Assembly (NCBI GenBank): GCA_002205965.3
Contig: NADL03000633.1
Span: 496,001 to 560,000 of the forward strand
Reading direction: 5' to 3'
Source: Kappaphycus alvarezii
Lineage: Eukaryota; Rhodophyta; Florideophyceae; Gigartinales; Solieriaceae
DNA length: 64,000 nucleotides
This document shows positions 16,846-64,000 of the stretch, piece after piece. A model generated the notes under the pieces. The model saw only the letters and a program-made list of their open reading frames with translations. It searched no databases and had not been told where the DNA came from. Position numbers and translations under genes: made by a program. Position 1 is the first letter of the stretch. The number at the start of each line of letters is the position of its first letter.

Positions 16846-16953
16846 GTGGTGGGCTTTAGGGAGTGGTAGGCATTTGGGAGTGTTTTATAAGGATAGAGGA
16901 AGATGTGTGGTGAGTACAATGATCGGAGAGGATTGAAACTTGGAATTAAAGGG

Positions 16954-16961
16954 TTTAAATA
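16954..16961 (-). promoter_or_regulatory. TATA box of acidic ORF copy 2
   Basis: TATTTAAA on the minus strand, about 110 bases before the ATG at 16,845. The same GAGCCTATTTAAACCC context and spacing occur at 60,244 before the 60,361 ATG, and a weaker form lies before the 34,183 ATG. Confidence 0.6.
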
Positions 16962-17546: not shown

Positions 17547-17624
17547 TTCGGTAAGAGGCAGCTAGGTTTACCGGGAGAAGTTTTAGTTCTTAACTGCTAA
17601 GCGAAACTGACGGCTTAACTAGCT

Positions 17625-17921
17625 TTAGGTGACTACAGATCTAAAAAACAACTGAATATCAGAAAATTCTTCTTCAACACATCTTTGCACCGGTGTACAA
17701 ATCGAGGGGTCCACGGTATCGAAAGAAACGTCTAATGCATTGAAAGCCCTGAAAATATCGATGTGGAGGTCTATTTCAGTAAATTCAATGTACTGTATAT
17801 GCGATGAATGCATTTTACATTTAATAGAAAGAACAATCGGAGAATGGGAAGACGAAATCACATCCTGAGATCTATTTAGTCCCTGGCCTTCCACAGTAAA
17901 CTTGCGCAGTACCTCTGCCAA
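17625..17921 (-). CDS. Small ORF downstream of vWA gene, doubtful
   Basis: A 98-codon frame (MAEVLRKFTVEGQGLNRSQD...) lies 68 bases after the vWA stop on the same strand. In the 62 kb duplicate the same frame is broken by a small deletion near 62,830. It has no recognised domain. It may be 3' UTR of the vWA gene rather than a gene, and the broken frame in the duplicate argues against function. Confidence 0.2.
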   Translation of the reverse strand: MAEVLRKFTVEGQGLNRSQDVISSSHSPIVLSIKCKMHSSHIQYIEFTEIDLHIDIFRAFNALDVSFDTVDPSICTPVQRCVEEEFSDIQLFFRSVVT

Positions 17922-17989
17922 TACTGTATACCATGTCAGAGCCTGCTCAGCTCACTGATAAACTTCGATTGTTTTCCATATTTCCGTTC

Positions 17990-18670: not shown

Positions 18671-18785
18671 TATGATAGTCGATGCTTTCTCTAGGAGATT
18701 TGGAGCAAATTTTGCTTTTGAGTGATAGCTGAAAGAAGCTGGCTACTTTTAGATCGTAAGTGAGTTGCTAAGGGCAAGATGCGTG

Positions 18786-18793
18786 CTTATATA
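18786..18793 (-). promoter_or_regulatory. TATA box of vWA gene copy 1
   Basis: TATATAAG on the minus strand, 116 bases before the ATG at 18,670. The same motif at the same distance precedes copy 2 (63,801-63,808). Confidence 0.65.
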
Positions 18794-18994
18794 TTGCTGA
18801 ACAATCCTAAGCGGAGGAAAAGTCGCGCTTTGCAATCTTGAAGTCCACTAATTTCTGCCGTCAAGTTGGTGAAAACCTTTCGCGAAAACCTTTCGCAGCA
18901 TGCATCTGAGTCTTTGTTAGTATATAGAATAGGAAGTTCGGCAGAATATCAGTTCTGCGGAAGTGTAAAGAAGGAGGTAAGGTGGTGACAACCC

Positions 18995-33669: not shown

Positions 33670-34325
33670 TGTCACGCGCGCGCGCGACGATTTTTTTTCG
33701 TCATCCATCTCCTCTGATTTTAACATACTGTAGCACCTTCTTCTTCACGACTTTGTTTATACCTACGGTCCTCATGTGTCCTCTTTTCCTTTACTCAGCC
33801 CCAAACAGATACTAGCTATTCTTCCCTGTCCGTGTTGACCTCTTCTGTGGTCCTTTGTAAATTCACAGCCGTTCTACTTACATATTATAATCCTGTATAC
33901 ACCACTCTAAATCGATCCCAAATCAAATTATTTTTCCATTTTTGGCTTATCTCCTTGTCCAAATTCATTTTTTTCTGAGAAAAAGGGCGCAAACGCATTA
34001 CTGCAAATTAATTTTCGGATTTATTTTATCTATTTCAAATCTATATAATGCGCCCTGGGGAGCCTATTCAAGCCCCTTTTTCCCAAGTTCCAAACCTTTC
34101 CCATCATTCTGCTTACAACCCTTCTACCCCTACCCATTTGAAACACCCTCAATCTCCTGCCAATCCTCAAAAACCACCAAAATGAAGCACTTATTCCTTT
34201 CCAACGCCATTTCCAAAACTCGCCAAACTCACCAAAAAACGTCATTCCGCTACTCCTTTACGGCCGTACTGACTGCCAAGAATATCTCCACCGGCTCGGA
34301 TGACGTCGACCAGTGAAACTTGTCA
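33670..34325 (+). mobile_element. Shortened acidic-ORF unit, tentative target duplication
   Basis: TGTCACGCGCGCGCG at 33,670 resembles the TGTTAGGCGCG start of the two full units. The following 500 bases match their upstream region, including GAGAAAAAGGGCGCAAA and AATGCGCCCTGGGGAGCCTATT. TAGTC occurs just before (33,665-33,669) and just after a TGTCA end (34,326-34,330). The 3' LTR segment is absent. The TAGTC match could be chance. Confidence 0.45.
34183..34316 (+). pseudogene. LTR-borne acidic protein, copy 3 (N-terminal remnant)
   Basis: ATG at 34,183 after ACCACCAAA, as in the 60 kb copy. MKHLFLSNAISKTRQTHQKT resembles MDNLCPSKGISKNRHHRPLN. The frame then leaves the family sequence: the family's YGxTDxxDYLRR reads in another frame as LYGRTDCQEYLHRLG and then stops. 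The acid tract and C-terminus are missing. Confidence 0.55.
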
Positions 34326-35650: not shown

Positions 35651-35989
35651 TTCATTAATTCTAACTTCAATAACATTATAGGCCTATTTTTTGAATCAGC
35701 GGGCCTGGAAATCTGAACATTTTGACACCGCTTAAACTCGCCTGGTAAACCCCAAAATTTTTTTTCCACCCTCCGACAAGAATATTTTGACAAATCAAAC
35801 CTCCCCCCTTGGACGTACTACCCTCTTCTCGCTCTATTGCCTAATCCCGTCATCCTCGCCTCACTACCTTCTCCCCTTTATTAACCCTGTGCCCAACCGA
35901 CTCGGAGGAACACACCAGTTGCTAAACCAGGAAACACCTGACTGAGCTCGCCGCTCGTCATATCATATGGTAGAGATCGGAGAACAGGA

Positions 35990-36600
35990 CGCAGTGCGCA
36001 GTGTTTCTTAATAGGAGGATGTTAAGGCAGGGGAGTGCTTCGAGTAGGGAGCGACCCCGGAACTGTTCTACGGGATGGAAGAAGAGGAGGCTGAATAAGA
36101 GTTTGGGAAAGGATAAGAGGAAGATGAGGAGTCCAGGGATTAAGATGTGGATGTCGAGCCCAGTCATATGGATGGGAAAGGAATAAATTGGTTGGAACAA
36201 GTGGTCTCGGCCATGGACGCGATTGGAGGTCGGATCAACTGTGCTGTATTCCTTACAGGAAGCCTTTTACTTATTTTTCTGATGCTTCTAGTAACAGTAT
36301 GGAGATTTTACCTACGAAAAAAGTCCACGTACTCTGATTAAAAAGCTTCCTCCATGAGATAAAAAGCAAGTGGGAATTATATCTCAAACCAAAATATTCA
36401 ATTAATCCCTTATACCCTAAGCAAGGTGGTAGAGCTTTCTCCTTCAGAGTTGTTTACTAAAACAGTCACTCATTTCTCACGTCATCTACCATCAATTGTC
36501 CACTTATGTCTACTTTAGTACTTTATTCGTTCGCAAAGACTCTAAACATGGGTAATTAGTGGATTTTTTCCGTCGACGCCATTTTTACCCTACCAGTATC
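35990..36600 (+). pseudogene. LTR-borne acidic protein, copy 4 (3' relic) with LTR-like tail
   Basis: The stretch 36,140-36,240 (INWLEQVVSAMDAIGG) matches the LDQVVPVMDPVGG segment of the 44.8 kb copy base by base. The flank 36,345-36,600, from GCTTCCTCCATGAGAT to CGACGCCATTTTTACCCTA, matches 49,615-49,865. It therefore serves as an empty-site relative of the 45.5-49.6 kb DNA transposon insertion. The 5' part and start are lost. Confidence 0.6.
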
Positions 36601-38454
36601 TATGTTGAGAATGACGAGGATTATATACGATAAAAAGCAGTGTATATCGATGAGGTTGTCTACATTCTTCTAAATATTCCTCTTGATTCCTAATTCGATA
36701 AGCGAGCTTCCTTGCGAAGGCTCCTCCGCCATATTCAGATTTTGGGACAGCGAATACTTCTTTTAGCAAAGAACGGGATAAAAGCACGGCAATTAGTCAC
36801 GGGCTCAGTGGATTTGTGCAAGCACAGCCGGCTACAAACATATTATCCTACCTATCGGGGAAATCGTACTACTCCCAGAAAGATATAAAATCGCTAACTA
36901 CTCCTAATGGGGTTTTCTTTGCTAATCGAAGCTGACGAAGTCAAAGAAGAGGTGTGATTTTTTTTTCATGTTCTTACCATGGTAGATGTTCTGTTCCACA
37001 AGCTCACCTTCCTTCGTGACGTGGAATTTCACAGGCCTCACGACTTTACACGAACGTGTTGTATCTAATATACTGTAGCTTCAAACCATTGGTAACCCAA
37101 TACCCGGGTCTAGTAGGAACCTTGCTTTCATTACAATTTTACTTACATTTATGGCCTCAGCGTTTGACCCTATTGAGTTACTTAGAATGGCAACGGCATG
37201 GTTAAACATTGAGATATTTTATCACTGCTTTACCAATTATAAGTTGTCTTGCTATCCAATGACACCTGTACCAACGTACGTTTTACATCTTCCCAGAGTA
37301 CGTTACCGGTGCCGACTATGATTCCGACAGCGCTACGTAAAATACCTCAAGGACTGTTTTAGTGGAAAAATTTTCATTCGATACTGTTAATCTAAAAATT
37401 AATTTATTATGTAGCTACCTCTAGTTCGAAATAAATCTTGATTTTGAGCGGTCGACCTAGCTCAGCCGGCTTCAACCCAGGTTTCATCCATAGTTCAACC
37501 AAGATCTGCTCATGTGTGATAAAACCCACTCAGTTGAACCTGAACCGGTGGGTACGGGTAATTTTTGGAACTTACTAGGAGTAGATAGTTGTTATATCAG
37601 CTCCTAATTTCTATTAACATCAGCTGCTAATTGCCGTGCATGATGACTAGTGGTGTAATTATGGAGTGAGGGGAAGAAGAAACACCCAACTATCCGATAT
37701 GAGAGATATTTCATGCTACTGAAGTGCTGCAGAAGAAGTTAGCAAATAACAGCCAGGAGTAGAAGTGAAAGAGCTGTCACCAACTCAGTACCCAGTTCTA
37801 AATGGGCAGCATTCTTTAGAAATTTTCGATAATAGGGAACCGATAAAATTTTCTAGGTTCGAAGTTGACTCCCAGCTTGCCTTTTGTCTCCTATAGGAAG
37901 CAGTTTGTGTAGCTTTAATATACATTTTCTAGACTATAATTGTTTGAAAACCAACAAAACTACCAGAAAAGCGAAAAATGACTTCATATGGAGGCAGAGA
38001 GTTTGAAAAAGATCCATGAAATTAACGAAAGAAATATACTCCCTAAAAGCTTTATGGTCAACTACAGATCTTAAAAATTCCCTATAGCTATCATACGTAC
38101 CAATATTGTCCCTACACATACAATCCTTGAATAAATATTAGGATCAAGAACCAAAACTCAGCTGCACATTTAAGAGCTGCAAATTGAAAACAAGGAAGGG
38201 AACAGACTTTTAGTACTACCAGTAGATATGCGAATATTCCCCTCAACGGCAACCTTTCGCCAGCCTAGACCACGAAGTTACCCTTTTTATTGGTCACTCT
38301 CTGTTGGCACAAAAAAATAGAACCAAATTTCTTTGAATACATAGCTTTACGAAGAATAAAAAAAGCATGATCAAATTTATACATTATATAAAACCAACGA
38401 CCCCCTTCACTACCCGACAAGTTTTATTCAACATTAAGCAAAAAAAATACGGGT
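36601..38454. other. No gene recognised
   Basis: AT-rich decayed DNA. A pol III A-box-like TAGCTCAGCCGG lies at 37,458-37,469 but no tRNA fold follows. Confidence 0.5.
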
Positions 38455-44630: not shown

Positions 44631-44755
44631 ATTAAATTCAACACTGCAACAACAAAAAATTGACAATTAAAGCACTCGTTTGTTCCCAAAAATTTATATA
44701 AAAAAAACTGTAACAAAAAAACTTGACAATTCACACACAACCCTTGGCAGCCATC

Positions 44756-45343
44756 ATGAACGGACTACACACTTCTCGCCCCATTTTCAAATCCTCTCAT
44801 CCTCACCTAATCATCATCTTCCCATTATTCCCTTCCGTCTCAATCAACGTAGAGGAATACCTACATCGCTTAATAAGGAAGTTCTGACGGAGCTCATTGC
44901 TCTTCACTTCGGGGAAATTGAATCACAGGAATTGGTAGGAGGGAATCGGAGGAGAAGGAAGGTAAAACAGGGGAATGCTTCGAGGAGTAGCTTTTCCCAG
45001 GTCTGGTCTATAGGATGGGAGAAGAGGAGGCCGAGGGCGACTCAGAGGAAGAAGATGAATGTCTGGGAACAAATTCGAGGAGAGGGAGAGGAAATTGATG
45101 GGTCGGTGGATGAAGAGGAGGATGTCGAACCAGGCCGTATGGAGGAGAAGGAATTGATTGGTTGGACCAGGTCGTCCCGGTCATGGACCCGGTTGGAGGG
45201 CTTCAGTTGAGCTGTATTCGTTGCAAAGAAGGATAGGCAATTGTGCGCCATGCATAGGCATGTATGGGGACTACATGGGTACACATGATGTCTTAAAGGA
45301 AGTGCAAGGATCCGATCTTGAAAATGAAGATTTAGAGGAGTAG
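44756..45343 (+). pseudogene. LTR-borne acidic protein, copy 5 (frameshifts)
   Basis: ATG at 44,756 gives MNGLHTSRPIFKSS and then VEEYLHRLIRKF, the counterpart of EDYLRRQTEEKIIEFVRKLF, before a stop. Other frames give GEEEAEGDSEEEDECLG, DWLDQVVPVMDPVGG and finally MYGDYMGTHDVLKEVQGSDL...EDLEE, the family C-terminus. Several frame changes show it is not functional as read. The DNA transposon at 45,466 inserted in its 3' flank, which resumes at 49,603. Confidence 0.6.
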
Positions 45344-45465
45344 ATTCATATAGTTTCGTTCAAGAATCTTCTGTCAAACTATTTGCATCGACATGAAATC
45401 TTTCCCTATTTTTCTGTTATTTGTTGTAGTTTCATAGAGATTTTATTTTCGAAGAAAGGTCTATA

Positions 45466-48252: not shown

Positions 48253-49279
48253 AGTCCCTTGCTGCACCACTCGTCGAGTTGGCTCATGATAAAAATGGTG
48301 CAATCCCTGCCTTTGTACCGAAAGCGCTGCACGCCACGGTAACATCACGTCTCAACTTTTGGCGCATCATTAACGGGCATATCAGAGCTAGTAGACCCTT
48401 CCTCCCCTTGAAGCTCTTTAAACATGCTGCGCAATCCTTCTATTCTAAAACAAAGGTATACTGCGCAGTGCTACATCCCACTTTAAATGGGAACAGAATA
48501 TCGTGTCACAGGTTCTCAATACGGTCGCGATTAATGGTTTCTTCGCGTGGCGGATGTTTCAAAGGCAGGACCTTTTGGAGTCCAAAGAGACGTTCAAGTG
48601 CCTGGACAACTACCGCAATGCATTGAACAAGGTTCAAGAAACGGCAGATTTTATGTATGATGTCTCTAAGGAACTGCTTTCCTACGCTGAGTGTTTAACG
48701 ATACAAGAAGGACAGCACGAAGCTGTAGAGCAAGAAGGAATACCGAGGAGGGAGGCAGAGAGGCTCATTGAGATAGCGAAAGCGCGACGTAGGAAGCGCA
48801 TCATGTTCTTCAACAGCGCAGAGGGCTTTAAGCTCCGTTTTGTCGTCCCCGGCCACATTCCAAAGCAAGGTACAGTATTGTACTGCGTTTTATGCAGGCA
48901 ACACAAAGGTGAGTGGCGTGGACATCGCTTAACCTACTCTTGTCCCGTTTGTAGCGTTCAGCTGTGCATCCGTACGTATCCAGGGCTAAGGAAAAGCTGC
49001 TGGAGTCTGTGGCATTCTACAAAGGCCTTAAGGCTGCGAAAAACGCCTCGCCTTACGGGAAGCGCTGCTTGCGAGACGGACGCCGAGGCGTATGACGAAG
49101 CCAGGAGACAAAATGAGGAAGACAGTACACCGGTGAGTACTCCCGCCGCTGAGCGGGAGAATTCTACGACTCCCAGACGCGCTTCAAAGCGTCTTCTGGA
49201 TAGAACATTTGCGTCAACACCACCTTCCGGTGTTGAAAGCCCGTCGGCAGGGCCTTGCCGGAGGCAGCGGCGAAAGTAA
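48253..49279 (+). pseudogene. Transposase C-terminal part with zinc finger
   Basis: VKSLAAPLVELAHDKNGAIP and RLNFWRIINGHIR lead, after a shift near 48,460, to NIVSQVLNTVAINGFFAWRM, like the final helical part of DDE transposases. The last open frame (48,503-49,279) contains a cysteine-rich finger YCVLC...RLTYSCPVC, LCIRTYPGLRKSCWSLWH. The C..C/C..C/C..H pattern recalls the C-terminal finger of piggyBac-like transposases, which contacts DNA ends. A Ser/Thr/Arg-rich tail follows to 49,279. The stop is about 320 bases before the right end. Confidence 0.65.
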
Positions 49280-49598: not shown

Positions 49599-49602
49599 TA
49601 TA

Positions 49603-49870
49603 AAGCTGAATAAAATGATTCCTCTATGAGAGGGAAAGTAGGATGGATGCCAATTTTAAACCAAAAAAATTCAATAAGTTTCCTACCCTACAAGCGAGGT
49701 CGTATAGCCTGCCCCTTTACAACCATTTACTAGCACTGTCACTCAGTTTTCATGTCCACTCCTATCCGCAGTCAGTTAACGTCTATCGCAGCACTGTAGT
49801 CGCTCTCAACAACTCTCACCTCAGGTAGTCAGTGGTTCCCTTTTCCGTTGAAGCCATTTTTACCTTATCG
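49603..49870 (+). repeat. LTR-like 3' flank of acidic ORF copy 5, after the transposon
   Basis: Matches 36,345-36,600, which follows copy 4 without interruption, so it is the continuation of the unit broken by the DNA transposon. Confidence 0.65.
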
Positions 49871-51381: not shown

Positions 51382-52098
51382 TGATAGGGGTAAATCGTCG
51401 GGAGAAGAGATACTTAGAACCAACTACCCCAAGACGGAGGTGTTGCGAGCGACAAAAGTGCTACCGTGGTATAGTTGAACAAATAAAAAGCAGTGTATAT
51501 GGGAGAGAGTTGAGAGGGCTACAAGCAAGTATAAAAGGGGCAGGTCTACCACTGATGCTCTGCGACAGCTTAGGAAAAAGTTTTCTAGGGTTGAAGTTGA
51601 CTCTCAACTTCCTACTACTCGGAGCTTGACCTGAAGTTGTCTGCCAACTTGCTTGACCTCTCAAGGAGGAAGCACTTTACTCAGCTTATATAGACCTTTC
51701 GGCTAATCCTAAAGTCTCAATCAAACATACTAAATACCATAAAACGCATTCACGGGAATCGTGTGAACCAGAGAGACCATTAGAAGATATTTCCTCAAGG
51801 TAAATATCTAGGTGCCATACCCATGCCAGCCACCCATCGGCCAGGGGTGGGAATTGATGTGGCCATTATATAGACCTTTCAGAGTCACTCGTAGTATCAC
51901 CCACAACCTAGAACTGTACTGACATCCACTATGACAGCGTGTCCTAAAATAAAAAATCAACCGATGAATTTGCCACACTCACCCAAATTAAAAATATCTT
52001 GCAAATTCAAAAACTGTAAAAATATCTTCCCAGTTCCAATACTGTATACAATTATGGTCCTCATCTAAATTTTTTCGTGTGCGAATTTGCGCACATCA
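51382..52098 (-). repeat. 3' LTR of the gypsy element
   Basis: 717 bases. Its last ~410 bases match the 3' segments of the acidic-ORF units. TATA-like TATATAAG (51,685-51,692) and TATATAAT (51,865-51,872) lie in a repeated GAAAGGTCTATATAA context, so the core promoter may be duplicated. Confidence 0.95.
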
Positions 52099-52111
52099 CG
52101 CCCTCCCGCTC
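52099..52111 (-). other. Polypurine tract of the gypsy element
   Basis: GAGCGGGAGGGCG on the minus strand abuts the 3' LTR. Confidence 0.6.
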
Positions 52112-52131
52112 AAGACGAACGTCCCGGCTCG

Positions 52132-52614
52132 TCACTGCTCTTGTTGTTCTTGTGGGAGTTCTATCCATTCATCAGGGAGAGTATAGGGTTCACTATAAGG
52201 ATATGGTAGTAGCTCATTTCCAATATGATGAGAGAGTGTGTACCGTGCGATGACCGGCTCATCTCCTTGGTCAAGAGTTTCGTAGATTCGGCGTATGGTT
52301 TCATAGTGTTCTCTAATGAGCTCCTCCCGTTTCACTTCTCCAAACCTTCCAAATGTGAGGTAGTAAACGTAGTATGCAAACTTTTCTGGCAACGGGTCCA
52401 GAAACGGGTATCTGAAGGAGAAAAAAACTCGCAACATAAGGACTGAGTCCTCACGAGTAAGGTGCGCCCCGTGAATGGTCTGGAAGCACATGCAAATACT
52501 AATGGCAAAAAAGGAAATTACTTCTGCTTCTCGAGGGTCCTCTGTCATTTCGCGAAGCCAACGTCTAATTGGTAGCCGTCCAATAATTAAGGATGCATAG
52601 TTTCCCCTGGGAGA
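52132..52614 (-). CDS. Extra domain B, paralogue of domain A
   Basis: Directly after the TAG that ends the domain A frame and in the same frame. An ATG occurs at 52,548 (138 codons); without it the reading begins SPRGNYASLIIGRLPIRRWL. FFAISICMCFQTIHGAHLTR, LMLRVFFSFRYPF, YYVYYLTFGRFGEV and LLPYPYSEPYTLPDEW align along their length with domain A: ICxCFxT..G, RVxFSF, PExxxYxYYxxxGRxG and PYPxxEPYxxP. It ends in a Gln/Glu tail 34 bases before the LTR. It may be reached by stop readthrough or be a separate ORF. No known family is recognised. Confidence 0.75.
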   Translation of the reverse strand, partial: SPRGNYASLIIGRLPIRRWLREMTEDPREAEVISFFAISICMCFQTIHGAHLTREDSVLMLRVFFSFRYPFLDPLPEKFAYYVYYLTFGRFGEVKREELIREHYETIRRIYETLDQGDEPVIARYTLSHHIGNELLPYPYSEPYTLPDEWIELPQEQQEQ

Positions 52615-53532
52615 CTAGGCGGTGTTTGAGGCGATCTTCTTGGCGATCTTCCTCGCTGCTCCCGACGCCTTGCCCTCTTCGATGATCCGCCCGATCACTT
52701 GATGGTCCAGCCGTATCATCATCACGGCTCGGGAGGATCTGGTCTTCGCTGAGGTTGTGTTTCTGAGCGGAGCAACGTAAGGTTCCCATAGAGGATACGG
52801 GACCAGTCGATATTCCATATCAGGGGGCAAGCTGTAACCTCTCAGTCGCACATCTTGGTTGTTCTTGAGAAATACGTAAACTGGACGGATAATGTTCAGA
52901 TATGTTTGCGACAAGTCTCCGATAGCTACCATTCCATACCTTCCTATAGAGTAATGATATATGACTTCCACAAACTCTGGACCTGCTTCCGTGAACCTTC
53001 CGTTTTGGAATGAGAATAGAACTCTGATCAATAGTCGGAAATCTTCTTGAGGTAGCAATGGTCCGTTCAACGTACGAAAACATAGGCATATATTAATGTA
53101 GAAATGGATGATTACGTGGAGTTCGTAGTAGTCACGCGTAATCGAGATGATCCATTCCCAGGCCCTTTTTCCTCCCATAGGAATCATTCTATAGTTAAAG
53201 ATGAGTATGCCTCGTGGTTGCGCATAGTCCTGTGTGAGAAGGAATTCTTCAGGCCTCTGATGGTAAGGGACCAGACGACGTGCATGGATTGCCCTCCTTG
53301 ATCTCTTCCCTGAGCTTGAACAGAGCTTATAATGCGGGTGTCTTTCCTCCGTGACGATGCAAGGGTTCGAGTACTTTGTTTGGAAAGCCGGCCACTTCAC
53401 AGCCTGTTGCATTGCTTTTCCGTGTGCTACAAGTACTTTAGAGCCGACTGAGAAAGTTTGGACTGGAGGCTCTTCATCCTTATTTCTTGTCTGTGTTAGC
53501 GCGCGGTGTGATCTCCAGCTTTCGGTGGCCAT
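52615..53532 (-). CDS. Integrase C-terminus fused to extra domain A
   Basis: A 305-residue frame. Residues ~25-95 are the SH3-like integrase end (VQTFSVGSKVLVAHGKAM, then IHARRLVPYHQR). No chromodomain follows. Instead there is an uncharacterised domain at ~135-250 with FYINICLCFRTLNGPLLPQE, LIRVLFSFQNG, IYHYSIGRYG and YPLWEPYVAP, then a basic tail. The same domain recurs in the next ORF. It ends with a TAG at 52,615-52,617; the downstream frame stays open for 160 codons. The function of the extra domain is unknown. Its place matches where env or other late genes lie in some Ty3/gypsy elements, but it has no signal peptide or membrane segment. Confidence 0.8.
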   Translation of the reverse strand: MATESWRSHRALTQTRNKDEEPPVQTFSVGSKVLVAHGKAMQQAVKWPAFQTKYSNPCIVTEERHPHYKLCSSSGKRSRRAIHARRLVPYHQRPEEFLLTQDYAQPRGILIFNYRMIPMGGKRAWEWIISITRDYYELHVIIHFYINICLCFRTLNGPLLPQEDFRLLIRVLFSFQNGRFTEAGPEFVEVIYHYSIGRYGMVAIGDLSQTYLNIIRPVYVFLKNNQDVRLRGYSLPPDMEYRLVPYPLWEPYVAPLRNTTSAKTRSSRAVMMIRLDHQVIGRIIEEGKASGAARKIAKKIASNTA

Positions 53533-53539
53533 AGTTCGA

Positions 53540-54660
53540 CCTCTCTACTCTCTTCATCGATAACATTTGTTTCCATATCTCTCTGTAACATTCTAGGAGC
53601 CTTCCGTACATTAGCTCAATGGTGACCGTCCACTTCTTCCTCTTCTTCGACGATAGCCGTATAACACTTTTGGTAAGGCATCTTCCCACTGGATTTCATT
53701 CTCGACATAGTTTTCGATATTGCTCGTTTGATGGTTCCAACCATCCTCTCCGCTTTCCGTTTGACATAGGAGCGTATGCGAGAACTGTCTTCAGCTGAAT
53801 CCCTTTCTCGTCCAAAAACGAAGCAGTGAAGTTGCAGTAAAACAAAGGGCGTTATCTGAGATGATCCTTTTTGGAAGACCAAACGGTTCAATTATTTCTT
53901 TTTCGATGAATCTCAGGACCACTCAGCATTGGCCTCCTCAACTGCAACTGCTATTGGCCATCCAGTAAGATGTTCCACCCCTATAAGGAGGTATTTGTTT
54001 CCGGAAGAGGTTTCCTTGAATGGGCCGGCAAAGTCAATTGAGAAGGTTTCAAAGAGCGGAAACTGGAAGCTTAGGTTGTCTTATACTTTCGTATGGAGTG
54101 AATTTTTGACAGTTGTCGCAGCTTTTCACGAAATTATAGACGTCCTTATGGATACTGGGCCACCAGAATCTCTCAGTAACGAATTTCTTGGTTGTTTCGA
54201 GATCCCAATGCCCTAACTCATCATGAAAAGTCCTCAAGATCTTCATTCTTTCTTTCAAAGGGGCCACTAGTCGAGGACCGGCTTTCGTGTGTCGGAAGAG
54301 TTTCCCATTCCATAGTGTAAAAGCCTTTTGATTCCTGCGTACCCAATTTCTGTGTTCAATATCAACCTTTCTCATTTCTAGTCCATCCAGGAATTTAATT
54401 AGTCCGTCAATATTAGCTTCGTACTCGTTATTGTTCGGCACTTGCACCTCGGCAACTCCGACGATGTTCTCGGAAGCTTTTTCATTTGGAATCAGTGGAT
54501 CCCTCAAGCGGGATAGGTAGTCGGCAGGCTGATTATTGCGTCCGGGCCTATACACAATTTCAAACCGATATTCTGCGAAAATGTCGAGCCATCGGGCCAA
54601 GCGGTGATGTACATCTTTCTTTTGGAATGCTGTCTTAAGTGCCTGGTGATCAGTTATCAA
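53540..54660 (-). pseudogene. Gypsy RNase H end and integrase, frame-broken
   Basis: ITDHQALKTAFQKKDVHHRL to YRPGRNNQPADYLSRL ends RNase H. Integrase begins with an HHCC zinc site, FHDELGH...FWWPSIH...CDNCQKF (about 54,100-54,230). The core shows FSIDFAGPFKETSSGNKYLL (first Asp), KRIISDNALCF (second Asp) and, after a one-base loss, KAERMVGTIKRA (Glu). Frame changes lie near 54,050 and 53,755. It would insert the cDNA, but not as read. Confidence 0.8.
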
Positions 54661-55198
54661 GACAAATTTCTCGAGTGATAAAAGGTAACACGAAACTTTT
54701 TCAGTGCGAAGACGACAGCTAGCGCTTCTTTCTCGCAGACTGAGTATCTTTTCCGCATCATTCAGAGTGCGACTTGCGAATTGAACGGGTGTAGTCTTCC
54801 GTTTTCATCTTTTTGGGACAAAACGGCACCCAAAGACCGTTCTGAGGCATCTGTCTCCACAACAAATGGTCTCTTGAAATCTGGATACATGAGCACTGGG
54901 GGACACATAGCTTATCTTTAAGCTCTCAAATGCAGTTGCATTTCCTTGTTCCATAAAATTTTCCGTTCTTCGTAGTGCTGGCATGTAACGGTGCTGCAGT
55001 TTGGCGAAATCTTTGATAAATCTCTGTAATATGAGGCCAGTCCTAAGAAGCTTCGAACCTCCGTCTTTGAAGCGGGCCTTGGTGCCAACTTGATTTTTTT
55101 CGTTTTCTCTGGATCCACTTTAATTCCCTCTTGATCGACGATATGACCGAGTAATTGGATAGACGTTTTCGCAAAGAAGCATTTGCTTAACTTAATTT
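54661..55198 (-). pseudogene. Gypsy RT connection and RNase H, frame-broken
   Basis: DPEKTKKIKLAPRPASKTEV then RSFLGLASYYRDLSKI (about 55,118-55,000) is the usual end of RT. RNase H follows in pieces: [19 protein letters not shown] around 54,820-54,870 and the KFRVTFYHS region, joining the ITDHQALKTAF start of the next frame. It needs at least two frame changes. Confidence 0.75.
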
Positions 55199-55852
55199 TC
55201 AGGCTGTACGCGATATCCTCTCCACCACAGTCTTGACATGCGATATGTGCTGATCCAAGGTTTTTGAGAATATCACTACATCATCGATATAAACTCTTGC
55301 AAATGGAAGTCCTTTCAAAACCTCGTTCATCATTCTTTGGAATGTAGCTGGGGCATTCATGAGACCAAAAGGCATCACTTCGAACCTGAATGTACCGGCT
55401 TTGCTGGTAAAAGTTGTTTTTTCCTTGCATTTTTCATCCAATGGAATCTGCCAATAACCAGTGTAAAGATCAATTGAGGTGAAGTATCTCCCGTCCTTCA
55501 AGTCCTCGAGGATTTCCTCCATATTCGGAATCGGAAATCGATCGGGTATCATTCTCTGGTTCAGTTGTCGGTAATCGACGCAAAAACGCAGCTTTCCATC
55601 CTTCTTTGGTGCGACCACAACTGGAAATGACCATGGGGATGAAACTGGCCGAATGATATCATTTTCCAGCATACTTGTAACATTCTCTGAGATAAATTGG
55701 TCATATTTTGGCGGTTGACGTCTAGGCCTGTGGTAAATTGGTTGAGTATCGGTAAGTTCAAATGAGTGAGTGACCGGTACACTTGCTTGTCTTAAATCTG
55801 ATACACTCCATGCAATTACTTCGGAAGATGTTAACATGTCGGATATTATCAT
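55199..55852 (-). CDS. Gypsy reverse transcriptase
   Basis: 217 residues. IYHRPRRQPPKYDQFI opens the fingers, then SPWSFPVVVAPKKDGKLRFC, VDYRQLNQ, FTSIDLYTGYWQIPL (catalytic Asp), FEVMPFGLMNAPATFQRMMN, RVYIDDVVIFS (the YIDD box) and the HVKTV helix. It copies element RNA into DNA. The frame closes after ERISRTA; the continuation LKIKLSKCFFAKTSIQLLGH reads in another frame, so the thumb and connection are separated by a frameshift. Confidence 0.92.
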   Translation of the reverse strand: MIISDMLTSSEVIAWSVSDLRQASVPVTHSFELTDTQPIYHRPRRQPPKYDQFISENVTSMLENDIIRPVSSPWSFPVVVAPKKDGKLRFCVDYRQLNQRMIPDRFPIPNMEEILEDLKDGRYFTSIDLYTGYWQIPLDEKCKEKTTFTSKAGTFRFEVMPFGLMNAPATFQRMMNEVLKGLPFARVYIDDVVIFSKTLDQHISHVKTVVERISRTA

Positions 55853-56150
55853 TGAGGCGGGGCTGGAAGGTGCTGTACTTTTTCTTGAATTTCTCCAATT
55901 TGGCGCTGGTCCTTTTCTTGATCCTCACCCTCCAAATTTTGAAGGACCTCTTCCGGCGTGCTCACATCTTCAGATATGGAATTCGATATATTCCTTGTTT
56001 TCCGTGCAATTGTAATCTTCTTTCATGCCCGAATTCCGTCCTTTGATTCGATATTATCGCAAAAAGAAACACATTCAGGTGTCAAACCTACCCTAGAATT
56101 CCATTCTTCATCTGTTTCAAACCCAGAATCATAATCGTCCCATGTCATGT

Positions 56151-56960
56151 TCATTGTCCCCGAGCGTACCCTTTCTCACTTCCGAAAGTGTTAGTTGGTT
56201 CGGAATCTTCGCTGTCATAGCTAGAAGTGAAATCTTCACTGTCCGTCTCTCTTAGATCTTCCGGATGTGTGCTTTTGTCGAAATCCAGGGGCATCTTCAC
56301 GTTTCTGCCGTCAACATTAACTGAAACGATTTGGTTGCCCAAGTCAATGCAGGTCCCTAGTCTTTCCATGGTAGGACAGCCAATGATTGCATCGAAAGGG
56401 AGCTCCGGCATGACGAGAAAGTCTACATCAACTTTAGAGTCCCCAAAGAACACGGAAACCTTGTTAACAGTGCCCATGCATTTTGAGACGGTTCCATCCG
56501 CCACAGTTATTCTTCGAGTAGTTGGAATAATTTCGAGACCTAAATCTGTCACCAAAGTTTCTGAAATAAGGTTTGGAACAGCGCCCGAATCGAAAAGAGC
56601 TTGGGTTTTCATTCCCAATACTTTGACTGGTACTAGTTTAAGACGTCTTGGTGCTGTCGAGGCCGATTGAAGAAACAGTTTCTTACCCTTAGCGGACTTA
56701 TTAGACCTGATAATTTTTTTGAGTTCTTTTCTCGCATCCTCTGCGTCGCCCCTCAAAAGTTGACCAAACGTTATCCCAGTTGGGGCCGATGCAAGCTCAG
56801 CCACCAAATTGTACTTCTTCACATATTCTAGTACGTCCTTCGGGATATTCTTAAATTTCTTACTCTTTTCGTCTTCTTGGCCGAGTGACTCCACTCCTGG
56901 AACAACTTGATCAGACCTCTTGGTTCGAGGAGGTACAGGTGCTGGGATATGTTCCAGCAT
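56151..56960 (-). CDS. Gypsy protease region
   Basis: 269 residues. The aspartic protease core is clear: TQALFDSGAVPNLISETL (active-site Asp-Ser-Gly at 124-126), RITVADGT, VDVDFLVMPELPFDAIIGCP with the IIG strand near 200. The N-terminal 100 residues link from Gag. After the protease it ends in an acidic Ser/Asp/Glu tail. It should cleave Gag-Pol into mature proteins. It ends about 300 bases before the reverse transcriptase frame, in a different frame. Confidence 0.85.
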   Translation of the reverse strand: MLEHIPAPVPPRTKRSDQVVPGVESLGQEDEKSKKFKNIPKDVLEYVKKYNLVAELASAPTGITFGQLLRGDAEDARKELKKIIRSNKSAKGKKLFLQSASTAPRRLKLVPVKVLGMKTQALFDSGAVPNLISETLVTDLGLEIIPTTRRITVADGTVSKCMGTVNKVSVFFGDSKVDVDFLVMPELPFDAIIGCPTMERLGTCIDLGNQIVSVNVDGRNVKMPLDFDKSTHPEDLRETDSEDFTSSYDSEDSEPTNTFGSEKGYARGQ

Positions 56961-57098
56961 TCCATAATCTAGCCTAGGTTTTTCGATAAAATGTTCCCTT
57001 CCCCATCCCTTTTTGTCACATTGACTTGACTGATTTCTTCAGCGATGGATACGTTACCGGCATCCGTCAACTTTGATCCTTTCTGTTTTGTAAGATTT

Positions 57099-58025
57099 TC
57101 ATCTCTGGTCCTGACTCGCTCCTTGCGTCCGATAAATTTGCTTTCTGTTGTCTTTAGACCAGCAGTTACTTTCATGATGCCCATATCGACCGCACTTTCC
57201 ACAACGAGTGTTTCTATGTGGATTATCAGGACACCTATTTGCAAAGTGTCCAGGCTTGTGACAGTAGGAACAGACTTCTGCGGCCTTGGGGGCCCCAGAC
57301 TGGTTCTTCTTAATGGTAAGAGTAAGGCTTTCCAACTGCGAGGTTATCATGTCAAGTCGATTATCGAATCGGGTTTCCAACCTTTCTTCCAAGTTTTTGA
57401 CATCGCTCCTGACTGATTCCAATGCTGCTGCGCTAGTCGCTGGCCTTTGATAATTCTTTTCAGGATGTACGATCGGCATAGATGTACGGGTTTCCCTCGG
57501 CATTTCACTTAGTGACTGAAACGTCTCCGAATTTTTGACAAATTCTACTATGGTACCCTTCAGTTCATTAAAAGTGTGAGGGCCCTTGATGAGGAGGAAA
57601 TCGGAGAGCCGCTTATCCCCCATCGCCGCCTTACGCAGCATTCCGTACTTGGCTTGGGCGTTGAACCCAGCCTTTTCATAGAGATCACACAAGTATACCA
57701 ATGAGCTTAACAAATCGTCGAAGTTGAGCCGGGCCTCTATGGCGGTACGAATCATCTCATCTGGTTCTACCTGCTTAGCATATTCTTTCACAAGCCACTC
57801 ACATACCTCACCGAAGTTACGCCCATTCCCGTTAAGAGACCACCCGTTGATAAACTTGGCCTTATATTTGTGCTTTGCGTCACCATGAAGATAGGCGAAG
57901 ATACTTTCGGCCTTCTCTTCATCGCTCTTCTCACGCATCACAACGTTGACATATGTATAGAGAAACTCCTCAACGTCTTCATTCTTGCCCCCTGTGAACG
58001 TTATACGAGCAGCGTTGAGATCCAT
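57099..58025 (-). CDS. Gypsy Gag polyprotein
   Basis: 308 residues from ATG at 58,025, about 90 bases inside the 5' LTR. The N-terminal 200 residues are helical, with FLYTYVNVVMREKSDEEKAE and GRNFGEVCEWLVKEYAKQ typical of retrotransposon capsid. Two CX2CX4HX4C knuckles follow near residues 253-290: CSYCHKPGHFANRC and CGKCGRYGHHESNC. Gag assembles the particle and binds RNA. It ends 140 bases before the protease frame. A frame one base over (57,244-56,969) stays open across the junction, so Gag-Pol expression by frameshift or a damaged junction are both possible. Confidence 0.85.
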   Translation of the reverse strand: MDLNAARITFTGGKNEDVEEFLYTYVNVVMREKSDEEKAESIFAYLHGDAKHKYKAKFINGWSLNGNGRNFGEVCEWLVKEYAKQVEPDEMIRTAIEARLNFDDLLSSLVYLCDLYEKAGFNAQAKYGMLRKAAMGDKRLSDFLLIKGPHTFNELKGTIVEFVKNSETFQSLSEMPRETRTSMPIVHPEKNYQRPATSAAALESVRSDVKNLEERLETRFDNRLDMITSQLESLTLTIKKNQSGAPKAAEVCSYCHKPGHFANRCPDNPHRNTRCGKCGRYGHHESNCWSKDNRKQIYRTQGASQDQR

Positions 58026-58096
58026 GATTACAGAAAAGAAATCCCCTCGAATGGTTCCCTAAGACTGCTCAACTCGAATACCTCGGGTGCAACCCC

Positions 58097-58114
58097 CTCC
58101 ACAAGAGTACCAAA
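58097..58114 (-). other. Probable primer binding site of the gypsy element
   Basis: Directly inside the 5' LTR, after two bases, the minus strand reads TGGTACTCTTGTGG. TGG pairs with the CCA end of a tRNA; the tRNA was not identified. Confidence 0.45.
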
Positions 58115-58830
58115 TGATAGGGGTAAATCGTCGGGAGAAGAGATACTTAGAACCAACTACCCCAAGACGGAGGTGTTGCGAGCGACAAAAGTGCTACCGT
58201 GGTATAGTTGAACAAATAAAAAGAGTGTATATGGGAGAGAGTTGAGAGGGCTACAAGCAAGTATAAAAGGGGCAGGTCTACCACTGATCTCTGCGACTTG
58301 CTTAGGAAAAAGTTTTCTTGGGTTGAAGTTGACTCTCAACTTCCTACTACTCGGAGCTTGACCTGAAGTTGTCTGCCAACTTGCTTGACCTCTCAAGGAG
58401 GAAGCACTTTACTCAGCTTATATAGACCTTTCGGCTAATCCTAAAGTCTCAATCAAACATACTAAATACCATAAAACGCATTCACGGGAATCGTGTGAAC
58501 CAGAGAGACCATTAGAAGATATTTCCTCAAGGTAAATATCTAGGTGCCATACCCATGCCAGCCACCCATCGGCCAGGGGTGGGAATTGATGTGGCCATTA
58601 TATAGACCTTTCAGAGTCACTCGTAGTATCACCCACAACCTAGAACTGTACTGACATCCACTATGACAGCGTGTCCTAAAATAAAAAATCAACCGATGAA
58701 TTTGCCACACTCACCCAAATTAAAAATATCTTGCAAATTCAAAAACTGTAAAAATATCTTCCCAGTTCCAATACTGTATACAATTATGGTCCTCATCTAA
58801 ATTTTTTCGTGTGCGAATTTGCGCACATCA
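58115..58830 (-). repeat. 5' LTR of the gypsy element
   Basis: 716 bases, starting TGATGTGCGC and ending CCCCTATCA on the minus strand. It differs from the 3' LTR in only about five positions by eye, so the insertion is recent. Confidence 0.95.
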
Positions 58831-59688: not shown

Positions 59689-59895
59689 TTAATCATCCTT
59701 CTCCCCACCAGCTTCTAACCCCTCCAGATCGGCAGCGACATCACCGACGTCGTCGCCGTCCGAAGAGTTCAGATCAGACCAGGCCATCCAGCGAGCAGCC
59801 ACCCACAAATGCTCCGTGCCGTAGGGTCCCATCACAGGCAGGTTAGTGTCCTTCTCAGTGGCCGTAATTATCCCACTTTCGCACCGTGACGTCTG
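59689..59895 (-). pseudogene. 3' part of a gene split by the LTR unit
   Basis: The minus strand reads SRCESGIITATEKDTNLPVM, GPYGTEHLWVAARWMAWSD and a very acidic end (LNSSDGDDVGDVAADLE...) to the stop at 59,689. Removing the 59,896-61,339 unit and one GTCTG joins it in frame to ADYQTTPNGVYGQT of the upstream part. Unknown family. Confidence 0.5.
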
Positions 59896-60243
59896 TGTTA
59901 GGCGCGTGCTGCTAGGAACGGATTTTTTTGTCGCCGTCATCTACAGACTTTTAGTTTACTGTACTACCTCCAAAATTGCTTATAATTCCGGTCCCTCCTC
60001 GTCCTCCGAGAGCCTTGCTTATCATTACCGCGGTCTTCTCCAAGTTTACTTCCATTTTAACTAGACATTTTTGTACTGTATCTACCCCTCTGAATTGATT
60101 CCGAATCAAGTTCTTTTCCCCTTTTTGCTTACCTCCTCCTCCAAATTTGCTTTTTTGAGAAAAAGGGCGCAAATGCACTACTGCAAAATCCCTTGCAGAT
60201 TAATTTTACCTATTCCTAATCGATATAACATGCCCCGGGAGCC

Positions 60244-60250
60244 TATTTAA
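60244..60250 (+). promoter_or_regulatory. TATA box of the acidic ORF
   Basis: TATTTAA in GAGCCTATTTAAACCCC, 117 bases before the ATG at 60,361, conserved with the 16.9 kb copy. Confidence 0.65.
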
Positions 60251-60360
60251 ACCCCTTTATTCCAAGTTTCAAACGTCCCCGATCATTTTACTCATCACTC
60301 CTCTCCCCCCACACACCCAAAACACCCTCTATCTTCCGTCTACAGTCGTTTACAACCAAA

Positions 60361-60899
60361 ATGAACAATATTCGCCCCTCCGCCCCTCCGCCCCCATCAT
60401 CAAAACCGCCCCTCTCGCCCCTTAAACGGCCGGCGCTCGCTGTTTATGGCCCGACGGACACAGAAGACTACCTGCGACGCCAGACTGAGGAGAAGATAAT
60501 CGAGTTCGTCCGCAAGCTCTTCGTCGAGGATGAGGCCGAGGAGGAACCTGAGTGGCAGGAGTGGGAGGTCGAGGGGGGAGCTGGGGAGACCTTCGAAGAG
60601 TGGGCAGCCCCGGAATTGGTCTACGAGGTTATGGAGGACGAGGATGAAAATGAGGACGAGGGTGAAGACGAGGACGAGGAGGATGAAGGACAGGGAGGCA
60701 TGGGAAGTGTTGGAATGGTGGAATGTATGGAAAAAGTGATGCCGACGCTGGAACCGGATGGAGATATCTTTAGTATTTTAGATATCTCCCAGGCGGGAAT
60801 GGAGAGCTATGAGCCGTTCGCACATATTTTGGGGACTGCTTGGACAGCATGGATATTTTAGAGGAGTTGTTTGGATCTGATTTAGAGAATGGGAAATAA
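60361..60899 (+). CDS. LTR-borne acidic protein, best copy
   Basis: ATG follows ACAACCAAA. Residues: a Pro-rich start (PSAPPPPSSKPPLSPLKRP), YGPTDTEDYLRRQTEEKIIE and FVRKLF (amphipathic helix, ~32-53), WEVEGGAGETFEEWA, then a long Glu/Asp run, and MECMEKVMPTLEPDGDIFS. The open frame ends at 60,861, but a one-base shift at the TTTTGGGG near 60,832 restores the family C-terminus GDCLDSMDILEELFGSDLEN and a stop at 60,897. With that, length is about 179. No signal peptide, membrane segment or known domain. Extreme acidity with conserved short ends suggests a binding partner role, perhaps chromatin or DNA mimicry; this is only a guess. Confidence 0.7.
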
Positions 60900-61026
60900 G
60901 AGGACCTCATTGATTGTTAGTTTCTTAAGTATCTTTTGTTTAGAGTATATCATCCACACAAATTGTTTGTATGAATTTCCTGGTACCTTCTGTAGTTTTT
61001 TTGGACTTTAGGGATAGCCAAAAGTC

Positions 61027-61034
61027 TATTTAAG
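61027..61034 (+). promoter_or_regulatory. Second TATA-like site in the LTR segment
   Basis: TATTTAAG in AAAGTCTATTTAAGCC, the position of TATATAAG in the gypsy LTR; probably the LTR's own promoter. Confidence 0.5.
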
Positions 61035-61344
61035 CCAAGTAAACTGCTTCCTCATTGAGAGGTCAAGCAAGTTGGCAGACAACTTCAATTCAAGTCCCCA
61101 GTAGTAGGAAGTTGAGAGTCAACTTCAGACCCAAGAAAACGTTTTCCTTCGCTGCTCACAGAGCATCATTGGTAGACCCTGCCCCTCCCATACTTGCTTT
61201 TAGACCTCTCAACTCTCTTCCATATACACGCCTTTTTGTTAGTTCAAATATACCACGGTAGCACTTTTTCGCTTGCAACACCTCCTTCTTGGGGTAGTTT
61301 TGTCTGAGTATCTCTTCTCCCGACGATTTACCCCTATCTGTCTG

Positions 61345-62039: not shown

Positions 62040-62550
62040 AACCAGCCTGCGTTTTTCGCTGGCATCTCGGCAAGAAACCCTTCATATTTCTGCATTTTCT
62101 TTGCGTGGGCTGCGTTGAAGCTCTTTTGTACGTTGAACTACTTGGCTCTGCCATGGGCGGGGCGATAGGGTCAATGAGGGTTGCGTCAATGTAGTTCGTG
62201 TCCTCGACAACTCCAATCGCCCGGATGTCCGGTCTGGTTCTGTACTGCTAACGGAATCGAGGCTCAGTGAATGGACTTCGGGCAGCCTTTGCAAATTCAT
62301 TTCCTAGAAGGGTCACCTGGTAGTTATGGCGAGAAATGCGCTCACAGCTGTAGCAACAGTGCATGAAATTGTTTCCGTAGATATCCAGCATTTCGCAACA
62401 CTCTGCTTTTGGACAAAACGTGCCAGGGGTGAATAAAGGGGTCTGGCGGAAGCGCCGGAACCAAGCGACGAAACCCTTGACCTTGATTTGTGCCTTCCAA
62501 TCAGGGCACGGTGCACTTTCTAGTTGGAATGGATTTGAATAATCTACCAA
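62040..62550 (-). mobile_element. Family C non-LTR element, Zn finger and endonuclease (copy 3)
   Basis: The minus strand opens at 62,550: FVAWFRRFRQTPLFT, CPKAECCEMLDIYGNNFMHC (zinc finger), RHNYQVTLLGNEFAKAARSP, then TRPDIRAIGVV, NYIDATLIDPIA and QKYEGFLAEMPAK. This is the best frame for the finger-to-nuclease part and is uninterrupted here, unlike copy 1. It shares its 5' junction with the vWA block in both duplicates, so it inserted before the duplication. Confidence 0.7.
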
Positions 62551-62887
62551 AAAGGCGCATCTGGGTAAGAGGTAACTAGGTTTACGGGGGAAAGTTTTAG
62601 CGCTCTACTGCCACGCTGAACCGACGGCTGAGTAACCAGCTTTAGATGTCTACAGATCTACAAAACAACTAAATCTCAGAAAATTCCTCTTTAACACGTC
62701 TTTGCAGTGGTGCAGAAATCGAGGGGTCCACGGTTTCGAAAGAAACGTCTAATGCATTGAAAGCCCTGAAAATATCGATGTGGAGATCTATTTCAGTAAA
62801 TTCAATGTACTGTATATGCGATGAATGCATTTACATTTAAATGAAAAAACAGTCGGAGAATGGGAAGACGAAATCACATCGTGAGAT

Positions 62888-63685
62888 CTATTTAGTCCCT
62901 GGCCTTCCACAGTAAACTTGCGCAGTACCTCTGCCAACACTATATAGCATGTCAGAGCCTGTTAAGCTCACTGATAAACTTCGATTGTTTTCCATATTTC
63001 CGTTCTTAGTGCTGCAAATTCCTAGAACAAGGCCCTCGATGATCAGTTCGAGGTCCAGAACATCAAGGAAACTGCCGACATCAAATACTGCGTTACTATC
63101 ACCGCCAGCGATAGCGAGCAGCTCCGCATCATTCGGCCGCCCTGCACCTACGGCACACACCTCGCCACCAACACGTCTGAACAGATCCGCCCTTGCCGAG
63201 GCTGATGACCCAACGTTGCTGCCGGCATCCCCTAGTAAAACGATCTTCAAGGCCTCTCCTCGTCGACGAATTAGACTGGAGAAACAGGCACTGATACCGC
63301 CGACAACAAATGACAAGCCACCTAATTGTTCTTCAGAGTTGACGGCTTCGTTAAATGCTGCGAGATCCGGTGTGAGCCCAATGATAGTTCTGACTGCTGT
63401 TGAATACTGAACGGCAGCAACCTCAATAGGATTATCCTGCAACACGGAGACTACATCCAGAACGAAATTCCTCTCGTTCACAAAAGCCTCTTCGGGGATT
63501 GATCCACTGCCATCGATGGCAAAGCAAACGTTTGCATTGCACCCACCAGCAGCGGCAACTTTCTCTCGGAGCTCGGCAGCAGCAGCGGCTGAGAGCCTGC
63601 CTGTGACAGGAATTTCGTTTACAGCAGCGGCATGGGCAAGGGCAAAGAGTAAAGACAAGGTGGTGACAAGAAAGGTGTTGATCAT
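62888..63685 (-). CDS. Secreted von Willebrand A-domain protein, copy 2
   Basis: 265 residues. The first 224 match copy 1 except for four substitutions (SIPEEAF for SIPAEAF, VRTII for VSTII, DLAAF for DLASF, NDAEL for NDEEL). Signal peptide and MIDAS DGSGS are the same. Compared with copy 1 a single base is missing after GICS, so the stop is lost and 40 extra residues follow (TKNGNMENNRSLSVSLTGSD and more, ending CGRPGTK). Most likely a C-terminal extension by a small deletion; the extra Cys is unpaired. Same orientation and promoter as copy 1. An extracellular cation-dependent binding role is inferred from the family. Confidence 0.85.
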   Translation of the reverse strand: MINTFLVTTLSLLFALAHAAAVNEIPVTGRLSAAAAAELREKVAAAGGCNANVCFAIDGSGSIPEEAFVNERNFVLDVVSVLQDNPIEVAAVQYSTAVRTIIGLTPDLAAFNEAVNSEEQLGGLSFVVGGISACFSSLIRRRGEALKIVLLGDAGSNVGSSASARADLFRRVGGEVCAVGAGRPNDAELLAIAGGDSNAVFDVGSFLDVLDLELIIEGLVLGICSTKNGNMENNRSLSVSLTGSDMLYSVGRGTAQVYCGRPGTK

Positions 63686-63800
63686 TATGATAGTCGATGC
63701 TTTCGCTTGGAGATTCGGAGCAAATTTTGCTTTTGAATGATAGCTGAAAGAAGCTGGCTACTTTAAGATCGTAAGTGAGTTGCCAAGGGCAAGATGTGTG

Positions 63801-63808
63801 CTTATATA
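63801..63808 (-). promoter_or_regulatory. TATA box of vWA gene copy 2
   Basis: TATATAAG on the minus strand, 116 bases before the ATG at 63,685, identical to copy 1. Confidence 0.65.
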
Positions 63809-64000
63809 TTGCTAAAAAATCCTAAGCGGAGGAAAAGCCGCGCTTTGCAATCTTGAAGTGCACTAATTTCTGCCGTCAAGTTGGTGAAAACCTTTCGCGA
63901 AAACGTTCCGCAGAATGCATCTGAGTCTTTTTTAGTATATCGAACAGGAAGTTCAACAGAATTTCAGCTCTGCGAAACTGTAAAGGAGGTAAAATTGTGA

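Follow-up and report, generated by a model that had tools for sequence, protein, structure and literature searches.

A conserved acidic open reading frame in the U3 region of Ty3/gypsy long terminal repeats of a florideophyte red alga

In non-viral retrotransposons, long terminal repeats (LTRs) are commonly regarded as control DNA, and solo LTRs are usually counted as dead. Can such a repeat also carry a complete protein-coding gene? The question is raised by a unit at 59,896-61,339 of a 64,000-nucleotide window (C629:496,001-560,000 in the 336-Mb assembly of the florideophyte red alga Kappaphycus alvarezii), which a first-pass annotation had described as an LTR with a gene for an acidic protein on its U3 side. 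The unit proves to be a solo LTR from a Ty3/gypsy family. We regard it as highly likely that the LTR of this family holds a complete gene in its U3 and that this gene is under selection.

Read directly, the unit begins with TGTTAGGCGCG and ends with CCCCTATCT, with GTCTG immediately on either side; the end consensus is TGTTAGG...CCCCTATC[A/T]. Over its whole length, a second unit at 15,825-17,317 is 75% identical to it; BLAST aligns the two to within two bases of their edges. The final ~345 bp of both units share 87% identity with the LTRs of a gypsy element resident in the same window. The LTR-like ends, the perfect GTCTG duplication and the gypsy-matching 3′ segment had all been claimed before, and direct reading and BLAST find them as stated. 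Both units have the form of a solo LTR, that is, a single LTR between direct target duplications, perfect for the first and agreeing in four of five bases for the second. The features of the window are collected in Table 1.

Table 1. Long LTRs, their acidic ORFs and related elements in the window (window coordinates).
Feature	Position	Strand	Basis or remark
Solo long LTR, type A, acidic ORF in U3	59,896-61,339	+	Edges, target-site duplication, genomic copies with identical edges
Left target-site duplication GTCTG	59,891-59,895	+	Direct reading
Right target-site duplication GTCTG	61,340-61,344	+	Direct reading
Acidic ORF, 166 aa in the window copy	60,361-60,861	+	C-terminus gone after frame break
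Upstream TATA box CCTATTTAAACCCC, presumed own promoter of the ORF	60,242-60,255	+	TATTTAA conserved among copies
Second TATA box TCTATTTAAGCC, presumed genomic-RNA promoter	61,025-61,036	+	Position of TATATAAG in the gypsy LTR
Core promoter and R-U5, common to resident gypsy LTR	60,995-61,339	+	87% identity
Resident Ty3/gypsy element, 717-bp LTRs without ORF, same gag-pol family	51,382-58,830	-	BLAST, Pfam
Second solo long LTR, type A, other subfamily	15,825-17,317	-	Flanks CGCAC/CGCAA, 4/5 agreeing
Acidic ORF of the 15,825 copy, 117 aa	16,492-16,845	-	In-frame stop within acidic tract
Older LTR copy with acidic ORF, like 3′ LTRs of L047/L049	13,686-14,801	+	5′ edge not found
Truncated long LTR, 5′ part as far as ORF start	33,670-34,296	+	
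Old relic, ORF remnant then LTR 3′ part	35,801-36,592	+	
Old relic, ORF and U3 3′ end	44,716-45,445	+	
Old relic, U3 3′ end to R	37,859-38,119	-	
Old relic, R-U5	49,601-49,838	+	

The gene had been called complete. A TATA box and an acidic ORF do lie in the U3; the ORF of the window copy, however, ends early compared with intact copies, after a frame break near its 3′ end that is common to L010 and L011. In the same way, the second unit shares the plan as proposed in its flanks and its end-to-end similarity, but not in an open frame. A 99% copy of the first unit (L002/L010, C629:582,995-584,449) stands 27 kb further on; its target duplication and flanks are the same, so that it represents a segmental duplication and no independent insertion.

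Profile and sensitive BLAST searches revealed six further relics in the window besides the two units; the last ~220 bp of the one at 35,801-36,592 were assigned through their match to the relic at 49,606-49,867. Copies or remains of the ORF occur among these relics, and the plan of acidic ORF, core promoter and R-U5 therefore predates the two units. A full element spanning the relics at 44.7 and 49.6 kb was considered and dropped, as the intervening ORFs have no retroelement match. One of them, at 48,449-49,279 (+), weakly matches a DDE_Tnp_1-like zinc finger (zf-Tnp_2, E 0.007, sub-threshold) and is possibly a piggyBac-type transposon in a GC-rich stretch at 46-49 kb. A 701-aa frame at 20,527-22,632 (-) matches reverse transcriptase (PF00078, E 5e-10) and is probably a non-LTR element.

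Do the edges hold elsewhere in the genome? With the 59,896 unit as query, 29 of the 48 genomic matches listed, counting the window copy, start at base 1-3 and reach base 1441-1444, 40 copies having been scored of 5,791 first-look candidates; the same edges recur among the copies found with the 15,825 unit. Target duplications agree in four or five of five bases at 29 of the 30 testable insertions with different flank pairs, and perfectly in 16, against a mean agreement of 1.8 for shuffled flank pairs. These 30 were drawn from 44 matches after setting aside four followed by a primer-binding site (PBS), five with an incomplete edge and five with an already counted flank pair (L020 and L027, among the latter, may be separate insertions); L009, L045 and L057-L060 lie outside this scoring. 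The sole exception, L043, has a polypurine tract (PPT) directly before it, i.e. it is a 3′ LTR. Since the duplications surround single LTRs, most copies in the test are solo LTRs. Copies running on past these edges without duplications, which would have spoken against a mobile unit, were not found among those examined; nor was a non-mobile cellular gene family with the same 3′ sequence found in the genome.

A genome search for full elements in which two such LTRs flank gag-pol was positive (L009, one element each on C519 and C792, and L050 in tandem). The first three have the order LTR, PBS, interior, PPT, LTR, bounded by a duplication that agrees in four of five bases in L009 and in all five in the others. 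In the element at C519:64,755-73,916 (CAATG/CAATG), the LTRs are identical at 1548 of 1549 aligned bases with 22 gap columns and carry ORFs of 215 and 221 aa; in that at C792:525,923-535,060 (GAGTC/GAGTC), identity is 1532 of 1536 with 17 gap columns, and the ORFs have 210 and 214 aa. An intact ORF of 210-221 aa is present in all four LTRs of these two young elements, and in both of them a complete ORF lies in the U3 of either LTR, which is the plan of sag in mouse mammary tumour virus (MMTV). LTRs of the gene-carrying family measure about 1.42-1.63 kb. A third pair, L063/L064, is not delimited by the simple end pattern.

The junctions are those of Ty3/gypsy elements: direct LTRs with a 5-bp duplication, a PBS after the 5′ LTR and a PPT before the 3′ LTR. 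The PBS, TTTGGTACTCT, stands directly 3′ of the LTR in 5 of 38 loci (L009a, L019, L034, L037 and L040, with L019 and L037 sharing one flank) and in the C519 and C792 elements; the same sequence follows the 5′ LTR of the resident element. The PPT, AAGT[C/G]CGGGGGG, directly precedes type-A 3′ LTRs. Between the LTRs, gag-pol of five elements is 93-96% identical to that of the resident element over 5.7-6.4 kb; samples of the C519 interior reach 98.8% in gag and 96.6% in the RT region, and one of the C792 interior 95.2%. The idea that a cellular family of acidic genes merely had LTR fragments inserted alongside by chance can be set aside almost entirely: it is refuted by the complete elements with paired LTRs, the common edges, the target duplications and the PBS and PPT junctions.

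Some copies have unusual arrangements. L050 (C385:2,700-12,699) reads LTR-internal-LTR-internal with a 7.5-kb period at 99.5% identity, and is either a tandem array or an assembly artefact; because of the tandem arrangement no target duplication can be read. Among the matches listed, three successive ORF matches about 7.5 kb apart occur on C385 and likewise on C606.

As judged from the substitutions among its copies, the acidic ORF is under purifying selection. The ratio pN/pS is about 0.3-0.6 in most pairs and about 0.8-1.3 in shifted frames; with the acidic tract masked, the median over 606 pairs is 0.55 in frame, and the two shifted frames give medians of 1.22 (575 pairs) and 0.82 (590 pairs), the pairs sharing ancestry and being non-independent. 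For 12 of 14 pairs picked across subfamilies from 46 copies, at most 7 of 500 neutral simulations gave a value as low; L057/L051 (31/500) and L058/L053 (131/500) are not clearly below neutral. In the pairwise comparison that gave the medians, one of 14 pairs listed, L012/L030, has a ratio above 1 (1.64, from few changes). Pieces of gag and pol give 0.09-0.56 by the same measure. Old copies decay neutrally after insertion, which draws the ratios towards 1.

These data also bear on the suggestion that the frame is a non-coding by-product of a U3 tract rich in purines (GAG/GAT/GAC), which might be an enhancer. The short repeat that makes up the acidic tract is indeed variable, and the frame is broken in many old copies; but the signal of selection persists when the tract is masked (pooled pN/pS 0.56 in frame versus 1.28 and 0.91 shifted), and other subfamilies retain the N- and C-terminal boxes, which do not belong to the tract. 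The ATG is kept in 39 of 41 copies. A by-product is accordingly very improbable.

Of these 41 copies, from which partial copies, near-duplicates and LTRs of the L057-L060 type were excluded, 33 keep TATTTAA some 117 bp before the ATG, and 31 have a TATATAAG-like box where the gypsy-shared part begins. The order in U3 is upstream TATA, ORF, and then the TATA common to the gypsy LTR. From this we infer that transcription of the gene is driven by its own upstream TATA and does not depend on the downstream promoter for genomic RNA.

What kind of protein is encoded? Intact sampled copies have 188-221 aa, with a pI of 4.05 in the three measured. An N-terminal Pro/Arg part is followed by GPTDADDYLRRQTKKKIIEFVRKLFVED, then by an acidic tract whose length varies among copies, and last by the C-terminal box SMDILEELFGSDLENGK; the named boxes are DYLRRQTKKKIIEFVRK and SMDILEELFGSDLENGK. 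The C-terminal box combines acidic residues with bulky hydrophobic ones and, on its composition alone, presumably resembles an activation domain. In a genome protein search, 41 of the 54 near-full-length matches listed are free of stops, counting the copy that supplied the query; this fraction is biased upward, as these 54 are the best-scoring, with 150 scored of 10,686 candidates. The full frame is open in just 3 of 39 LTR copies (L026, L032 and L039); the others are broken or cut, and the copies are old. The fold model of the 166-aa frame is poor (mean pLDDT 53.7), with a helix at 31-55 in the GPTDADDYLRRQTKKKIIEFVRKLFVED region that is suggestive only.

The strong acidity and the acidic-hydrophobic C-terminal box are the grounds on which we favour, tentatively, a function for this ~21-kDa, pI-4 protein as a nuclear accessory regulator that would act in trans on the transcription or chromatin of the family's LTRs. 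A variant protein in the 3′ LTR of L049 has VIVISDSSD ahead of its acidic part, and the copy at 13,686-14,801 has LIAISDSSD there, in a different frame from its start; we take these stretches to resemble a SUMO-interacting motif.

A cellular origin is a distinctly unlikely alternative: a host gene would have been captured into U3 and would retain its host function, with little gain for the element. Captured genes are known from LTR elements elsewhere, as reported in PMC7264820. Against capture, no homologue outside the family appeared in protein, prokaryotic or viral searches. No homologue of the 166-aa frame was found at E<=1 among 5.8 billion proteins (176 candidates), in a search whose sensitivity is limited to shared 5-residue words and whose query was this truncated frame, which lacks the true C-terminus. 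Intact frames gave only sub-threshold matches to Pfam and PDB, mostly across the acidic tract; an intact frame had no protein relative in genome_contigs and viral_contigs (prokaryotes and viruses), where the LTR-end pattern had no exact match either. Furthermore, the ORF occupies the same place in old relics and in several subfamilies, which argues that it has long been part of the element.

How far does the family depend on this gene? The resident element provides a comparison. Its LTRs (51,382-52,098 and 58,115-58,830) are 99.3% alike and flanked by a perfect GACTC duplication, and a paralogous segment at 14,811-15,240 is an empty site without it. Pfam finds protease, RT, RNase H and an integrase zinc domain, with a gag zinc knuckle below the cut-off; the domain order, read from coordinates, and the nucleotide match of internal regions place it, and with it the family, among gypsy elements. 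Its U3 is unrelated to the other U3s by BLAST and has no acidic ORF. All 40 scored copies of this gene-less LTR (of 2,403 candidates) are 99-100% identical. The gene-less form underwent a recent burst, and the gene was therefore not required in cis for that multiplication; its role may lie in trans, or the family may be able to do without it.

The resident element probably lost the gene by replacement of its U3, for which the evidence is moderate. In a tree of LTR 3′ ends, in which recombination is apparent, many forks stay unresolved and the bootstrap has not quite converged, the resident LTRs group with L047/L049 (100/99) and next with 13,686-14,801 (94/98), and these neighbours carry the gene or its remains. 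Their N-terminal box is altered (PTDYDDY.R...) and their frames are broken; the C-terminal box of L047/L049 keeps 14 of 17 residues. The gag of the resident element differs at pS 0.005 from that of L048 and L050, two elements whose LTRs bear the gene, so that the exchange of U3 looks recent.

Several LTR subfamilies share the acidic ORF. The similarity of L057-L060 to the units sets in only near the ORF start, at base 473-504 of the 15,825 unit, and continues to the end; the sequence before it differs, and their 5′ edges are not fixed. Upstream of the ORF, L057, L058, L060 and the 3′ LTRs of L047/L049 have GTAATACA/GTAACACA repeats, which L059 lacks. In L047, L048 and L049 the 5′ and 3′ LTRs are of unlike types, ~80-91% alike where they align, which points to recombination between subfamilies.

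The main rival to a regulator of LTR transcription is a self-limiting factor of the Ty1 p22 type: the protein would limit the element's copy number in trans, its dosage growing as solo LTRs build up until expression or transposition is damped, and loss of the gene would free the element. Ty1 p22 is reported to rise with copy number and to inhibit retrotransposition (PMC4599808). A gene that can persist in solo LTRs could have a dosage that follows copy number, and the form with the recent burst is the gene-less one, whose LTR 3′ end falls among gene-carrying LTRs. Gene-bearing elements are young as well, however (LTRs alike at 1548 of 1549 bases), and purifying selection on a self-inhibitor borne by the element requires special conditions. 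We hold this alternative to be unlikely, and keep the trans-acting LTR regulator as the preferred reading.

Reverse transcription copies U3 to both ends of an element, and recombination between LTRs leaves solo LTRs. A gene in U3, placed ahead of the element's usual core promoter and R-U5, is thus copied to both ends, each new insertion brings two gene copies, and LTR-LTR recombination leaves solo LTRs that keep the gene. It is conceivable, though rather doubtful as a whole, that the LTR serves as the carrier of a self-encoded nuclear regulator, expressed from its own U3 promoter in full elements and solo LTRs alike; its dosage would then track the number of LTRs, and gene-less relatives with an exchanged U3 would exploit or escape it in trans.

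Among known systems, sag (naf) of MMTV is the closest in plan, with a whole sense ORF in U3 and hence in both LTRs, as here; sag encodes a superantigen of a vertebrate retrovirus. The comparison with sag, already drawn in the first-pass annotation, is apt for the architecture and not as homology, since here an acidic protein is carried by a Ty3/gypsy element in a red alga; no sequence relation was found, and Pfam gave no superantigen hit at E<=0.1 for the 166-aa frame or E<=1 for two intact frames. The nef, tas and bet genes of other vertebrate retroviruses have their start outside the LTR, and Tas of foamy virus is a transactivator; here, in contrast, the whole gene lies within a Ty3/gypsy LTR. 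Lentiviral nef and ORFs in the long LTRs of HML endogenous retroviruses are described as further retroviral cases (PMC2664473), and together with foamy tas/bet (PMC7828637) they are accessory ORFs in, or reaching, the 5′ third of the LTR. The two TATA boxes of the red-algal LTR, before and after the ORF, are candidate promoters that may be likened to the two of MMTV, where a separate U3 promoter, P2, is reported to direct sag without P1 (PMC9412291).

Outside retroviruses the parallels are partial. Additional ORFs (aORFs) of plant elements resemble the red-algal ORF as accessory genes kept in most copies; an example is gene23 of maize Grande, described as encoding a nuclear protein and having its own promoter (PMC7264820). 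Plant aORFs are assigned to the interior of the element, chiefly between pol and the 3′ LTR and often antisense (PMC7264820), whereas the red-algal ORF lies inside the LTR, before the gypsy-shared part; the available text of that source contains no LTR-contained aORF. Cassandra, as described, has a 5S rRNA-like unit with its own promoter inside its LTRs, and so at both ends; that unit has a 5S-type internal promoter, is non-coding and belongs to non-autonomous elements, whereas the present one is protein-coding and belongs to elements with gag-pol. In crapaud of Podospora the U3 splits into subfamilies while the rest is conserved, and some full copies have unlike LTRs (PMC10787394); the accessible part of that account makes no mention of a gene in the crapaud U3. 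PMC1560396, PMC3087523, PMC11117352, PMC12037069 and PMC4016481 were considered as candidate cases and, in the text available, do not concern LTR-contained genes; the corresponding parts of PMC5408684 (rotifer ORF3s) and PMC10223558 hold nothing on LTR genes outside retroviruses. In the open-licence literature on LTR ORFs and red-algal LTR elements, as far as its text is accessible, no non-viral retrotransposon with a protein-coding gene in its LTR was found, and within that literature the precedents for a U3-contained gene are retroviral only.

A gene in U3 doubles at each insertion and can outlive the rest of the element in solo LTRs; the element thereby has a way of retaining a trans-acting gene once gag-pol is gone. 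Forms with and without the gene, almost alike in gag-pol, offer a natural contrast within one genome, and it becomes directly testable whether a protein encoded in the LTR stimulates or curbs the family that carries it. The result also suggests that red-algal annotations may include LTR-borne "hypothetical acidic proteins".

Finally, two genes for vWA-domain proteins lie in the window at 17,384-18,988 and 62,420-64,000, in 1.6-kb segments that are 91% alike, and the solo LTRs near them are inserted in opposite orientation. The best matches of the vWA-domain gene beside the unit are a EukProt transcriptome entry (83%), presumably from a red alga, and proteins of Gracilaria domingensis and Agarophyton chilense (~60%).
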